Assembly: GCA_902779395.1 (NCBI GenBank)
Contig: CACZBK010000015.1
Span: 1-64,000, forward strand
Reading direction: 5' to 3'
Source of the DNA: an uncultured Lachnospiraceae bacterium
Lineage (GTDB): Bacteria > Bacillota > Clostridia > Lachnospirales > Lachnospiraceae
Length of the DNA stretch: 64,000 bases
Shown here piece by piece: positions 1 to 7,022 of this stretch. Position 1 is the stretch's first letter; each line of letters opens with the position of its first letter. The notes beneath the pieces are model-generated. The model saw only the letters and a program-made list of their open reading frames with translations. It ran no database searches and was not told the DNA's origin. The position numbers and the translations under genes were made by a program.

Positions 1-3000
1 AAAGTTACAATAGACAGGCGTGTGGTAAGTGTTAACGTTATAAAAGCCAAGAATAAAACATATGATGCCACCACAAGCGCAGAGATAGATAATAGCAGTG
101 TAGTTATAGAAGGAAGAGCCGATCAATACCTTAGCATCGCAGCCGATCCGGAATTCGAAGACGCTGATGCAGGTGTGGGTAAAACCGTAAATATAAGCAA
201 CATCAGACTCACCGGTTCTACATCGGCAAACTATATACTTTCCGGCAGCGGTAATCATGCTTCAACTGCAGCAGATATTAATAAGAGAAAAGTCACGGTA
301 ACCGCCCTTGATCAGACCGTTATAGTAAATCAGAAAATTAATGCTTCAGTAAGCATGGCAAGCTTAAGCGGTGCGGTGGAAGGACATACACTGTATTCCG
401 TAAGCTTAAATGCCGATGATACATCCCACAAGACTACGAATGGTGTCATAACCGCTGCGAATGCAGCTATAAGCAGCAACAGCGCGGATGTTACGGCAAA
501 CTATGAGATAGAATATGAAGAAGGAAATCTCACCGTTATTCTGGGTGAAGCGGCTGCTGTAACGACCGCTCCACAGGGAAAGGCCGGCTTGAGCTATAAC
601 GCAGCAGCACAGGCGCTGGTGAGCGCAGGTATGGCGGACGGCGGAACGCTTATGTATGCTCTTGGCGATGACGATGAGACCGAACCTTCATCAGGCTGGA
701 ATGAAACAGTTCCCACCGCTATAGATGCGGATACCTACTATGTATGGTATAAAGTCTTTGGTAATGAAACTCACGACGATTCGGATGCTGTATGTATTGA
801 AGTGACGATAGCACAAAGGGACGTTACTGTGAAAGCGCTTGATCAGAGCGTATCCCTTAATGCGGCTATCAACGGATCAGTCAGCATGGCACAGCTTTCG
901 GGACAGGTGACCGGCCATACTCTCTACAGTGTAACGCTCACATCAGGCAGTACTGAAAATGTGACAGCTTCAGGTGAGATAATCGCATCCAATGCTGAGA
1001 TACGAAACGGTGATACCGATGTAACACCCAACTACAGGATCACCTATGCCAAAGGTGTTCTGACAGTAAAGGCTGTTGAAGCCACTGTAACTACAGCCCC
1101 CGCTGCACGGCAGCTGGTATATAATGCAGAGGCTCAGCAGCTGGTAAGTTCAAATGCCGTGGCAGTTGGCGGAGAGATCAGATATGCATTAAGTACCAAC
1201 GGAGTAACCGCACCCACTGAGGGCTTTACTCCGGCGATACCCACAGCCACGGATGCAGGAACCTATCATGTGTGGTACATGGTTCATGCGGATGACAACC
1301 ACGTAAGTACAGCGCCTGTATGCGTGGATGTTACGATAGTTCCCGCTGAATATGCCATCCGTTATGATAAGAACGACGGAAGCGGAGCAGTGGTATCGCA
1401 GAATAAGACCATAGGAAAAGCCGGAGAAAAGGCGACCATAAGCATCAATGATGCAAGCCGCGAAGGATATATGTTCAAAGGCTGGAATGATAAGGCCGAC
1501 GGAAGCGGTAAGCCTTATAAAAACGGCGATGAGTATACTCCCGTACGAAAGGAAGATAAGAGCTTTGCAGACCTTACGATATATGCACAATGGGAGGCAG
1601 TGAGCCTTAACTCCATAAGCATCAATAAAGCTCCTGATAAAACAAAGTATCACGAAGGAGAAAACTTTGATCCCACAGGTATGGTAGTTGTGGCTAACTA
1701 CACGGACGCTTCTTCAAAAGAGGTGACTGCTTATACTTATACACCCAGTTCAAACCTTGCACTTACAGATGATAAGGTAACAGTAAGCTATACTGAAGAC
1801 GGTATCACCTGCACGGCAGAACAGCCTATCAGTGTAAGTGAAAATGAGCCTGAAATAACAGTAAGCCTTAATTCCATAAGCATCAATAAAGCGCCCAATA
1901 AGACCGAATATCTTGAAGGAGAAAGCTTTGATCCTGCAGGTATGGTCGTGGTAGCTAATTATACTGATAACAGTACTAAGGAAGTAACAAACTATACCTA
2001 TAGGCCCGACACCGGTCTGTCACTTACAGATAAAAAGATAACTGTAAGCTATACTGAAGGTGATATCACCTGTACAGCAGAACAGGCCATAAGCGTAAGC
2101 GCAAATGAGCCGGAAGCCACGGTAAGCCTTAATTCCATCAGCATAACCACAGCTCCTGCAAAGACAGCTTATAAGGAAGGCGAAAAGTTTGATAAAACAG
2201 GTATGGTGGTGACCGCAACTTACACCGATGAAAGTACAAAGGAAGTTACGGACTATACCATTGATCCTTCGGGAGAACTTAAGATCGATGATAAAAAGAT
2301 CACCGTAAGTTATACCGAGGGCAAAATAACATGTACGGCGGAACTTAAGATAAGCGTAAGCCGCGTAAAGACAGAGGAAGAAGAGGTTATAACAGAAGAT
2401 GAGGATTACTTCATCTGGAACCTGTATGAGGATTCAACACCTAAGACACTTAAGATAAAAGGCGTGAGTGTAAATGAGACTGTCACAAACAGTAACAGCA
2501 AGTCCTCAGCGTTCTATAAAGCGACACTGTGCGGCAGCGACATAAGCGTTTCCGTTATCGGTAATCTTAAAAATGCTGCTAAGGCAGAAAATACCTTACT
2601 GGAGTTTAAGACTGCTGACGGCGGAATTATAGAGTACACCCTGCCTGTAGAATATAAAAAGCCCGTGCTCAAACTTTCAACAACTTCCGCGACCATAAAG
2701 AAGGGAACTGCTTCGAAAGTTCAGACCACAGTGCTTTATAAGACTGCAGGCGGCAACTTCGAGCCTCTTGATCTGACCGGAGGGGAAGTTAAATATGACG
2801 GTAAGGCAGCCGAGATATTGGAAGACGGCGTAATATCCTTTACAACCAGCAATTCAGGAAAAGGAAAGATAAGCATCACAGGTAAAGGCTGGAACGCAAA
2901 CGATCCCATAGAGCTTACGTTTACTATAAAAGCTTCAAAAAAAGATGTACTTTACGTTGATCTGGGTGGCGCAAAGGATGTGGTCATCAACCGGAATATA

Positions 3001-3789
3001 AAGGGCCAGAGTTTTGAATACCCTGTATACTTAAACGGCGAAAAAGCCGGTGCACTGGATATAGAGGATAAAGCCAAAACCGGCCTGGCACACTATGCTG
3101 ACGGAATACTCACAATATCTGATCCGACTGGCTGGAACCTTAAGCCCAAGACTTATACCATTACACTCAGCAATGGAGATGTAAAGGCAAACGTAAAGAT
3201 ACGTGTTACCAATAAAGATCTTTCAAAGTCGATAAGCCTTAAATTACAGAGCAAGTACGATGTAGTCACCGGCCAGAAAATGGTGATCGTTCCCACGCTT
3301 AAGGATATCGACGGCGAGTTGACCGGTGTGAGCGTCACGGATAAGAACTACAGTGCAGTTATCAATGAAGCCGGAAATATAGTTGTAGACTACAGCGGCG
3401 ATGCACTGGATGCAAAGCATCTTAAGATAGGTAACCTTACATTCAAGCTTAAGATAAGCGATGTTGAAGAGGAAATACCGGTCACCATAAAGAATGTGAA
3501 GGCTAAAAAATCATCGATAAATGTGAAGGCAGCCAAGGTTAAACTTAACGGCGGAAAAACAGGTGTGGCTAACCTGATATGCAGCTATAAAGATTCAGCC
3601 GGTAATTTGCATCTAATCGCGCCGATAAGTACCTATGTGGTTAAACCCACTAAAGTTAAGGCTGTGGTAAGTGATGATCCGACAGTTATCAATATCTCGG
3701 ATCTTAGCGGAAAAAGTGGCAGCATAAAACTCAAGCTTACTTTCGCCGGCGGGGTTACTAAGACGGTTACGGTTAAGGTTGCGAAGTAA
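1..3789 (+). CDS. Giant Ig/MBG-repeat surface protein, 5'-truncated by window edge
   Basis: The frame is already open at base 1 (KVTIDRRVV...), so the true start and any signal peptide lie upstream. The visible 1262 residues are a string of extracellular modules. First comes a YDG/MBG-type domain (KNKTYDATTSA, residues about 8-95). Two MBG-like domains follow that share ALDQ(T/S)V and GHTLYSV cores, alternating with two copies of a VTTAP...DA(D/G)TYYVWY module. Next is one InlB/Flg_new B-repeat (YAIRYDKNDGSG to LTIYAQW, about 450-535), three nearly identical 87-residue Big_3-like Ig domains, and a long unassigned beta-rich C-terminal half. There is no LPXTG, SLH or GW anchor at the C-terminus (ends VTVKVAK), so any anchoring must be upstream or non-classical. 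A good terminator follows. I infer a role as surface adhesin or stalk; no enzymatic domain is seen. Confidence 0.85.
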   Translation, partial: KVTIDRRVVSVNVIKAKNKTYDATTSAEIDNSSVVIEGRADQYLSIAADPEFEDADAGVGKTVNISNIRLTGSTSANYILSGSGNHASTAADINKRKVTVTALDQTVIVNQKINASVSMASLSGAVEGHTLYSVSLNADDTSHKTTNGVITAANAAISSNSADVTANYEIEYEEGNLTVILGEAAAVTTAPQGKAGLSYNAAAQALVSAGMADGGTLMYALGDDDETEPSSGWNETVPTAIDADTYYVWYKVFGNETHDDSDAVCIEVTIAQRDVTVKALDQSVSLNAAINGSVSMAQLSGQVTGHTLYSVTLTSGSTENVTASGEIIASNAEIRNGDTDVTPNYRITYAKGVLTVKAVEATVTTAPAARQLVYNAEAQQLVSSNAVAVGGEIRYALSTNGVTAPTEGFTPAIPTATDAGTYHVWYMVHADDNHVSTAPVCVDVTIVPAEYAIRYDKNDGSGAVVSQNKTIGKAGEKATISINDASREGYMFKGWNDKADGSGKPYKNGDEYTPVRKEDKSFADLTIYAQWEAVSLNSISINKAPDKTKYHEGENFDPTGMVVVANYTDASSKEVTAYTYTPSSNLALTDDKVTVSYTEDGITCTAEQPISVSENEPEITVSLNSISINKAPNKTEYLEGESFDPAGMVVVANYTDNSTKEVTNYTYRPDTGLSLTDKKITVSYTEGDITCTAEQAISVSANEPEATVSLNSISITTAPAKTAYKEGEKFDKTGMVVTATYTDESTKEVTDYTIDPSGELKIDDKKITVSYTEGKITCTAELKISVSRVKTEEEEVITEDEDYFIWNLYEDSTPKTLKIKGVSVNETVTNSNSKSSAFYKATLCGSDISVSVIGNLKNAAKAENTLLEFKTADGGIIEYTLPVEYKKPVLKLSTTSATIKKGTASKVQTTVLYKTAGGNFEPLDLTGGEVKYDGKAAEILEDGVISFTTSNSGKGKISITGKGWNANDPIELTFTIKASKKDVLYVDLGGAKDVVINRNIKGQSFEYPVYLNGEKAGALDIEDKAKTGLAHYADGILTISDPTGWNLKPKTYTITLSNGDVKANVKIRVTNKDLSKSISLKLQSKYDVVTGQKMVIVPTLKDIDGELTGVSVTDKNYSAVINEAGNIVVDYSGDALDAKHLKIGNLTFKLKISDVEEEIPVTIKNVKAKKSSINVKAAKVKLNGGKTGVANLICSYKDSAGNLHLIAPISTYVVKPTKVKAVVSDDPTVINISDLSGKSGSIKLKLTFAGGVTKTVTVKVAK
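1600..2370 (+). repeat. Three tandem 261-bp repeats encoding Ig-like domains
   Basis: The sequence GTRAGCCTTAAYTCCAT recurs at 1600, 1861 and 2122, giving an exact 261-bp (87-codon) period. Each copy encodes a VSLNSIS...GMVV...TVSYTE...ITCTAE...ISVS domain. The constant period and high nucleotide identity suggest recent tandem duplication. Such in-frame repeats can change copy number by recombination. Confidence 0.9.
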
Positions 3790-4004: not shown

Positions 4005-4060
4005 AGGAGTATGCTTTAAATGTATGTATGCGTTAAATTTCAGTTTTACGCAATAATGTC

Positions 4061-4176: not shown

Positions 4177-5214
4177 ATGCTGGGAAAAGAAAATCTTACT
4201 CAAAAGATAATCCGCTTTTGCAACGATCTTCCTGATTGCTGTACATCATTTTTATTAGAGACAGGTACGGAAATGGCAAATTCGACCAGATTGGCATATG
4301 CCCGTGAACTCGACTGGTTTTTCGATTATCTGATCAATTATAACCCGGATTTCGCAGAAACAGCCAAAAGAAAGATCACCATTGAGCAGATCCGCGGGAT
4401 AACATCCCAGGATATCTCAAGATATCTTACGATATATAAAGGTCAGGGAAAGGCCGAACGGACCCTTGCACGTAAACGCGCAGCTTTATCCAGATTCTTT
4501 ACATACCTTACGGCAAACCGGCAGATCGAGTTTAATCCCGTAGCCGCCGCCGTTCGTGTTAAGATCCATCAAAGCGACGAAGTCCTTCATCTGGATATGG
4601 CTGAGCAGGTACGGTTTTTGGACGCGATCGACGCAGGCACCGGAATGACCAATAAACAGCTGAAACAACACGAAAAATACCGTCTAAGGGATGTTGCATT
4701 GGTTACATTGCTTTTAGATACCGGTATGCGTGTTTCTGAGCTTCATGGTATAGATATTGCAGATTTTGATTTTGATGAATGTTCTGTAGTGATCACCCGC
4801 AAAGGCGGCAACATGCAGACGATCTATTTTTCCGACGATACCAGGGATGTTTTGCTGGATTATCTTAATGAACGCAAAGCAAAAGATCAGAATATCAAGG
4901 CTGAAACCGCCTTTTTTACTACCAATAAAGGCGACCGTCTGTCTATCCGCAGTATCGAGGTCCTTATCAAGAAATATGCATTGTGTTCCATTCCCGGTAA
5001 AGGCCGCAAATTATCCCCTCATAAAATGCGTTCTTCCTTTGCTATGGAGTTTTATGCCGCCGAAAAGGATATTCTGGCCCTTCAGCGCAAATTAGGCCAT
5101 AAGAATATTACGGCTACAAATATCTATGCTAAAGCTACCGACCAGAAAATGAAGGAAACCCGCTCGATCCTGGCCGAAAAACGCAGCAAACAGCGCCGCA
5201 AAAAAGCAGATTAA
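4177..5214 (+). CDS. Tyrosine recombinase/integrase, XerC/D-like
   Basis: This 345-residue, full-length phage-integrase-family recombinase would carry out DNA strand exchange through a covalent 3'-phosphotyrosine intermediate. Residues 1-125 form the SAM-like core-binding domain. Residues about 160-335 form the catalytic domain with Arg near 184 (TGMRVSEL), HxxR (SPHKMR), GH at 307-308 (LGHKNI) and nucleophile Tyr317 (NIYAKA). The catalytic tetrad and tyrosine are therefore intact. The start is supported by GGAG 8 nt upstream. It stands alone with its own promoter, convergent with the flavoprotein gene (111-bp gap). No prophage, integron cassette or dif-like site is recognised, so the substrate is unknown. 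A lone recombinase next to an inverted DNA segment raises the possibility that it is a local invertase, but the sequence does not prove this. A second Xer homologue cannot be excluded as its role. Confidence 0.88.
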   Translation: MLGKENLTQKIIRFCNDLPDCCTSFLLETGTEMANSTRLAYARELDWFFDYLINYNPDFAETAKRKITIEQIRGITSQDISRYLTIYKGQGKAERTLARKRAALSRFFTYLTANRQIEFNPVAAAVRVKIHQSDEVLHLDMAEQVRFLDAIDAGTGMTNKQLKQHEKYRLRDVALVTLLLDTGMRVSELHGIDIADFDFDECSVVITRKGGNMQTIYFSDDTRDVLLDYLNERKAKDQNIKAETAFFTTNKGDRLSIRSIEVLIKKYALCSIPGKGRKLSPHKMRSSFAMEFYAAEKDILALQRKLGHKNITATNIYAKATDQKMKETRSILAEKRSKQRRKKAD

Positions 5215-5325: not shown

Positions 5326-6960
5326 TCATAAAGCCCCCATCACATGTTTTGCAGCTATCATGCCGAAAGTGTAACATCTTCCAAGGGACAGACCTGTCTG
5401 ATGGAAAGGATAATCTGCACCGCCGTAAAAAGGTCCTCCAAGATTTCCTACACAGTACAGGCCCGGTATGGGTTCACCCTTTTCATCAAGAGCCTGGGCA
5501 TTTTCATTGGTGATCACACCGGATACTTCCGCAGAAACACGTATATGCTTGCGGGCTCCCCAGAAGGGTGCTATTTCTATCTTATGCATATATTTGGCAG
5601 GTTTTCCGAAATCAGTATCAACACCTTTTTCACACAGTTCATTATACCTGTCTACGGAAGCCTTAAGCTTATCATATGGAATTCCCAGTTCTTTAGCCAG
5701 TTCCTCAAGTGTATCGCACCGATGCAGATCTATCAGATTCTTAAACACTCCTTTGGGATCCTCTACTGCCCCGGGTATGAATTTTTCCATCACCGCAGGA
5801 GGAACCTTCCCGCTGACGAATTCATCATCCGGCCAGCTCATATAGCTGTCATCATATATTGTACAGTACCATCCTTTCGACCCGTTTTCCTCATGTTCTT
5901 TATCCAGCATACTTCCTTTAAAAGGCGGCTGGTATTTAAGCAGATTTCCCATATAAACAAAGCCGGTATACTCATTTGTGAAACGCTCCCCTTCCATGTT
6001 CACATACAGAAAAGGCTCCTCCCACATAAGGGCCGAATCGAAATCATGCATCATCTTGGTATGGCCAAGGTTCTCCATCACGGCGCCTGCACTTATGGCC
6101 ATTACATGTCCGTCACCGGTCTTACCAAACTGCTTTTTATCAAATTCCGCAATATCCGGACACCACTTCTTAACCATAGCAGGATTGTTTGTATAATCTC
6201 CTGTAGCCAGTATCACTGCCTTTGCGGCATTAAACTGTATATACTCTCCGTCTGCTTTCTTTCCTATCACACCACATACTCTGCCGCCATCCGTAATAAG
6301 TTTTACTGCAGGAGTTGAATAGAACACTTCAAGATTCTGACATTTTTCCTTTACATTATCCACAACCTTACGAAGAGCATTTCCGACATTAAGGGGCTTG
6401 GGTCCCACCCAGGGTGCCCAGAAATAACAATGATCATCACCGTATTCGTAGCTGTTTTCCCTATCTTTCCAGGTACCGGTAAAATCTCCGCTGGTACTGA
6501 TAAATGCACTTAGTTTATCACCATCATTTAACAGCTTTGCGCTTTCCGTATTACTGTCCACTTTACTTCCGTCACCATATTCCGTTTCTTTGGTAAGGCC
6601 CGCCCTGTTTAAAAACCATATCAACGCCTCTTCGGAATGATCCGCATAGGCTCTTAACTGCTTTGTATCAGCGCGCCAGTCACACAGACTGTTGGTATGA
6701 TGTATCCACTTGGCTATACCAGCTTCGGTGGATCTGGATCTGATTATCGCAGACCCGCAGTTGCCCTGCGAAACCACGTTTATCTCTTTCTGAAGCAATG
6801 CTGTCTTTGCACCCAGTTCTGCTGCCCATCCTGCTGCCGGTACACCAGATGCCCCGGCACCAACAGCTTACTGAAGAAGAAATATCGGCATCGGTATGTG
6901 AAACGGGTGAAATAAAGCCTTCTGAGATACTTTATTATGATGTAGTGGTTGTTGTATCAT
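5326..6960 (-). pseudogene. FAD-dependent oxidoreductase (fumarate-reductase-like), disrupted by a 94-bp inversion
   Basis: The gene body (6798 down to 5326) encodes a soluble flavoprotein of the fumarate reductase/3-ketosteroid dehydrogenase superfamily. The C-terminal FAD-binding block GLYCVGNLGGPFYGG is clear. There is no FMN-attachment domain or signal peptide. The natural start is ATG at 6960-6958, preceded 8 nt away by GGAGG (6969-6973). From there the frame runs only 30 codons to a TAA at 6870-6868, then reopens as AVGAGASGVPAA. Flipping 6861-6954 replaces the stop-containing stretch with MIQQLTEEE...EILYYDVVVVGAGASG. This gives 544 codons and a canonical Rossmann FAD motif. As written the protein would lack the first FAD beta strand, unless translation restarts at an internal TTG (6798). 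The substrate is unknown because the fumarate-reductase active-site residues are not conserved. It may be an OFF-phase gene rather than a true pseudogene. Confidence 0.85.
6861..6954. repeat. Inverted intragenic segment bounded by CAACA/TGTTG
   Basis: The segment lies between the inverted repeats CAACA (6861-6865) and TGTTG (6950-6954). The intervening 84 bp (28 codons) read in the flavoprotein's frame only on the opposite strand to the rest of the gene. The plus strand here encodes QLTEEEISASV...EILYYDVVVV. That is the leader and first beta strand expected immediately before the GAGASG on the minus strand. The inverted repeats are only 5 bp (6 of 7 in an alternative register), which is shorter than known site-specific inverton repeats. 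Confidence 0.85.
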
Positions 6961-6992
6961 CAGTTTTTCCTCCAGTCATGCTGTATGTTACT

Positions 6993-7022
6993 ATTTTACA
7001 TCAAAACAGGCAGCCCTGACAA
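6993..7022 (-). promoter_or_regulatory. Promoter of the flavoprotein gene, -35 inside a terminator loop
   Basis: On the minus strand TTGTCA (7022-7017) is followed by an 18-bp spacer and TAAAAT (6998-6993). The -35 overlaps the loop of the terminator of the upstream minus-strand gene. The -10 lies 32 bp before the start codon. Confidence 0.5.

Follow-up and report, generated by a model that had tools for sequence, protein, structure and literature searches.

The locus and its broken flavoprotein gene

The window analysed here, bases 1-64000 of contig C15 in a 3.58 Mb assembly of 56 contigs (genome G000), carries near its left end a gene for an Xer-like tyrosine recombinase, a palindrome upstream of this gene and, on the minus strand, a copy of a flavoprotein gene that is interrupted near its start by an inverted segment of 94 bp (Table 1). 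Several of the nearest relatives with the flavoprotein gene are Lachnospiraceae assemblies from the rumen or omasum of sheep, goats or deer, and the source bacterium is therefore taken to be a rumen-type commensal.

Table 1. Positions of the genes and sequence features discussed in the text (window coordinates).
Feature	Position	Strand	Remarks
Conserved imperfect palindrome upstream of recombinase gene	4029-4052	+	Unlike the inversion arms
Xer-like tyrosine recombinase gene	4177-5214	+	Below every curated NCBIfam cut-off among those listed
Flavoprotein (FAD_binding_2) gene copy, broken near start	5326-6960	-	Body 5326-6867 open
Inverted 94-bp segment	6861-6954		84-nt spacer plus two 5-bp arms; opposite strand to gene body in relatives
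Arm CAACA	6861-6865
Stop TAA	6868-6870	-	Created by the inversion, after 30 codons
Arm TGTTG	6950-6954
Start codon ATG	6958-6960	-	Outside the segment
Ribosome-binding-site-like GGAGG	6969-6973	-	8 nt spacing to ATG
Promoter-like site TTGTCA-18-TAAAAT	6993-7022	-	Outside the segment; consensus match only

The encoded protein matches the FAD_binding_2 family (PF00890; 109.8 bits vs. a gathering score of 20.4), and its best matches by sequence among solved structures are urocanate reductase and flavocytochrome c fumarate reductase. It falls below every curated NCBIfam cut-off among those listed, and for vinyl phenol reductase (NF053717) the score was 138.7 bits vs. a cut-off of 600, as obtained with the intact relative L018. 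The FAD-binding domain is homologous to that of vinyl phenol reductase, urocanate reductase and flavocytochrome c fumarate reductase, and our guess, by analogy with these enzymes, is that the protein may reduce a small unsaturated compound.

Read from its ATG, the frame runs into the premature stop and then reopens as AVGAGASGVPAAG, and reversing 6861-6954 in silico yields 544 codons without interruption, carrying YYDVVVVGAGASG. The start codon, the GGAGG, the TAA, the reopening, the arms and the 544-codon flipped frame had all been described in a first-pass annotation of this DNA and were confirmed in the sequence; its plus-strand frame, given as starting at 6866, needs correction, and QLTEEE...YYDVVV is actually in frame from 6864 to 6950. 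Because the start codon and the ribosome-binding-site-like and promoter-like sites all lie outside the segment, the inversion appears to have struck the coding sequence and to have spared the expression signals. With translation stopping after codon 30 and the start of the FAD-binding fold (...DVVV) lost from the frame, this gene copy is presumably inactive as assembled.

Translation of the gene body might also begin at an internal start (e.g. TTG 6798) and give a shortened protein that still works, a reading that draws on the conservation of the body and on its being open for 490 codons from this TTG. Such a product would nevertheless lack the VVVVGAGA[AS]G segment, which is kept by 78 of the 80 relatives and is required for FAD binding in Rossmann-type FAD domains, and we regard a working protein of this kind as extremely unlikely.

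Orientation of the segment in related species

That flipping the segment re-opens the reading frame is weak evidence for an inversion, because an inversion preserves length and only stops within the segment count. Among 10,247 flips placed arbitrarily in the region, 4,243 (41%) gave an open frame again; for flips bounded by arms of at least 5 bp, the figure was 11 of 13. The first-pass annotation had held a chance restoration to be very unlikely, which, given the 41% of arbitrary flips that restore it, does not hold for the frame. We therefore rejected frame restoration as evidence for the inversion, a question that homology settles instead; equally, a flip that restores a frame says little, taken alone, about whether a locus is an inverton.

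Compared with this gene in related species, bases 6861-6954 are reverse-complemented. The flipped reading is aligned from codons 1-5 by 78 of 80 related loci, and the other two (L032 and L072) have apparent small frameshifts near the N-terminus and no inversion. When the 29-aa plus-strand piece was used as the sole query, 74 matches were found in 72 of the 80 loci (eight gave none), on the gene-body strand every time, with an identity of up to 76% and an E value of about 6e-11; the search was run at a loose E of 10, and at least one of the 74 is a chance match. At the DNA level, the segment matched four of the eight gene-bearing relatives in the genus (G012, G014, G017, and G032) on the strand opposite to the body, with identities of 73-79% and a best E value of 7e-12, and the other four gave no match in this search. 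The segment was again found on the strand opposite to the body in a repeat DNA comparison with L019, L020, and L022, although the genome set and the locus set overlap (e.g. G017 = L018, G012 = L019) and are not independent. The flipped reading shares its length of 544 codons with L018, L020, L021, and L022, indicating a clean join.

The alignment of homologues that had been proposed as a check thus matched the gene-like orientation, and the inverted state was found in none of the 80 related loci, the source species being represented by one genome. Family-wide, five of 397 genomes gave a match at E 1e-150, and only the match in G000 begins late in the protein. A search for relatives of the flavoprotein in viral contigs gave no match. 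The apparent frameshifts in the flavoprotein genes of L032 and L072 lie near positions 3200 and 3985 of these loci, respectively.

The normal orientation in every relative, together with a gene that is otherwise intact, is also what an assembly or library artefact would leave if the gene had its normal orientation on the true chromosome. Against this, the exact shared arms of 5 bp would be far shorter than an assembler's overlap, the junctions are clean, and the segment has one genomic match at E 0.001, which argues against a paralogue chimera. Nor is there a second such event in the aligning parts of the window between 19.3 and 64 kb: in comparisons with G012, G017, and G032, no aligned block had a short match on the opposite strand beside it on the same contig, in a scan that scored 40 of the 46 to 104 first-look candidates per genome and run and may have missed some. 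An artefact therefore seems unlikely to us.

Second copy, conservation and age of the break

In addition to the broken copy, G000 encodes an intact second copy of the gene (C37:257-1879), sharing 88% identity with the intact relative L018. Across the 35 genomes searched, G000 has two copies and the other eight gene-bearing genomes of the genus have one each, and in the tree the two G000 copies group with different relatives. Given the intact second copy, loss of the broken one may have been tolerable. A stretch of about 14 kb (about 5.2-19.28 kb), with the broken copy at one of its ends, is missing from G012, which instead has about 1.2 kb separating the recombinase gene from the block that matches the window from 19.28 kb on. 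These 14 kb also hold a large DUF285 repeat protein, and a gene near the intact copy (L131 5562-6665, G000:C37) has a long KKAEEEAR repeat tract.

The broken copy shows no departure from the 283 columns that are at least 97.5% conserved among 82 aligned sequences, a state shared with 28 other sequences. Decay elsewhere in the gene, which the first-pass annotation had asked for as a sign of a fixed mutation, is thus absent at conserved columns. Compared with five sisters, the broken copy has 20 private residues, whereas each sister has 2-9 (a start-codon artefact is counted among the nine of L019), and none of the 20 falls in the 283 conserved columns, a distribution with a probability of about 4e-7 if random, as a rough post hoc estimate. 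Judged from these patterns, the broken copy appears to have been under purifying selection until very recently.

Its protein also evolves about twice as fast as those of the sisters. The protein branch of the broken copy measures 0.10 vs. 0.021-0.046 in the sisters, and Tajima-type comparisons (n = 15) gave counts of 23-35 for the broken copy vs. 11-18 for the sisters, with chi-square values of 1.45 to 12.52 that exceeded 3.84 in 11 of the 15. The same kind of comparison for the intact second copy gave 18 vs. 8 and 17 vs. 14. The faster rate could reflect an altered function or altered constraint before the break. Synonymous distances approach saturation, which makes dN/dS ratios rough, and no ratio was obtained for pairs in which dS was saturated.

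With no departures at conserved columns, the inversion is either young or reversible, and the selection data fit both. A reversible switch would account just as well for the lack of decay.

Inversion arms, mechanism and known systems

The perfect match between the arms CAACA and TGTTG ends at 5 bp, with no extension. Since arms of at least 5 bp would be met at a random inversion with a probability of only about 0.005 (analytic estimate), microhomology probably mattered for the inversion. In 79 intact relatives (79 of 81 rows were kept, and L032 and L072 dropped), the longest repeat that links the corresponding two positions measures 3-7 bp, with at least 5 bp in 24 relatives and 3-4 bp in 55, which matches the chance expectation. 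Across these relatives, arms of this kind come about by chance and are not a kept feature. Among the listed repeats of at least 8 nt, none places its two arms at the two edges of the segment; one 8-nt pair (6689-6696 and 6859-6866) reaches across the left edge but not the right. In its present orientation, the segment has no unusual single-strand fold (z 0.25 and 0.80) by which the arms could meet, a point against the micro-inversion explanation.

The palindrome upstream of the recombinase gene, which we take to be dif-like, has the form TGCGTTAAAT-NNN-AGTTTTACGCA, is kept in the six relatives aligned and, with up to three mismatches allowed, has a single occurrence in the genome. In all four relatives with close copies of both genes (G011, G012, G017, and G032), the recombinase and flavoprotein genes are on different contigs. 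This unrelated conserved site and the separate contigs make it unlikely that the neighbouring recombinase is the invertase. In G017 (L130, G017:C106:1-8000), the recombinase gene is flanked by two open frames in opposite orientation, both of which share sequence with the adhesin-like gene at 22-3789 of the window, perhaps as a gene-shuffling arrangement.

These observations bear on whether the locus is a programmed intragenic inverton, in which case the segment would be turned back and forth by a recombinase, making the redox enzyme phase-variable, and the assembled sequence would show the OFF state. An inversion lying exactly between inverted repeats within a gene, a gene body without decay and a gene for a tyrosine recombinase at a distance of about 1.6 kb would all be in keeping with such a switch. 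However, the arms measure 5 bp and not the 10-40 nt that one account gives for inverton repeats (PMC11892184), they are at chance level in the relatives, the recombinase examined has a single site of its own, no related locus is inverted, and the intact second copy would make a loss tolerable. The first-pass annotation had named two possibilities, an OFF-phase switch and a micro-inversion that has become fixed. There is good support for a micro-inversion that inactivates the gene, whereas a programmed switch is, on the points just listed, very unlikely.

We consider it likely that a spontaneous and recent micro-inversion at a 5-bp microhomology has disrupted a redundant gene copy. Compared with the ancestral orientation, the segment is reverse-complemented between flanks that are in place, and it has 5-bp inverted repeats exactly at its edges. 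During replication or break repair, DNA synthesis may have jumped strands at the inverted repeat CAACA/TGTTG, and the 84-nt spacer would then have been copied in reverse between two strand jumps, by template switching or microhomology-mediated repair. The outcome would be the stop after codon 30, with the start of the FAD-binding fold out of frame, a loss that the redundancy provided by the second copy may have allowed to be tolerated. Both arms are still there, so the event may on rare occasions reverse. A reversible switch that needs no recombinase, with the 5-bp arms flipping by template switching at a low but selectable frequency, is in our estimate very improbable; if true, it would make a redundant redox-enzyme copy a contingency locus without a dedicated invertase.

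The locus is a well-resolved bacterial example of how a micro-inversion at 5-bp repeats can break a gene, seen before further decay. Searches that demand arms of at least 10 nt would presumably miss such events, and ordinary annotation would just label such a gene as truncated.

Intragenic invertons or programmed gene-altering inversions have reportedly been described by Chanin et al. 2024 and Milman et al. 2023, and in those systems, as far as they are described, an inversion inside a gene truncates the product, as it does here. Unlike in intragenic invertons, the arms of the present locus are too short and are not kept in relatives, the neighbouring recombinase is probably not tied in and one state is seen.

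The inverted repeats that flank micro-inversions between human and chimpanzee measure 3-75 nt, and in about half of the cases 4-8 nt, and for very short arms the authors of that survey favour break repair (PMC8755829). In yeast coding genes, template switching inverts spacers, and reversal is possible (PMC8604942). The human-chimpanzee cases span 17-33 nt in that account (PMC8755829), in contrast to the bacterial inversion of 94 bp, which hits a coding start and makes a stop, and the yeast cases described have spacers of 2-5 bp and arms of more than 9 bp (PMC8604942), unlike the 94-bp inversion and 5-bp arms found here. Both precedents, as reported, are eukaryotic and have inverted segments shorter than the present one, which counts against a micro-inversion as the explanation. 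The locus nevertheless resembles the human-chimpanzee cases in being an exact short reverse complement whose edges lie at inverted repeats of a few bases (PMC8755829), and it resembles the yeast cases described in being an inversion of coding sequence between short inverted repeats, with the arms retained and the event reversible in principle (PMC8604942).
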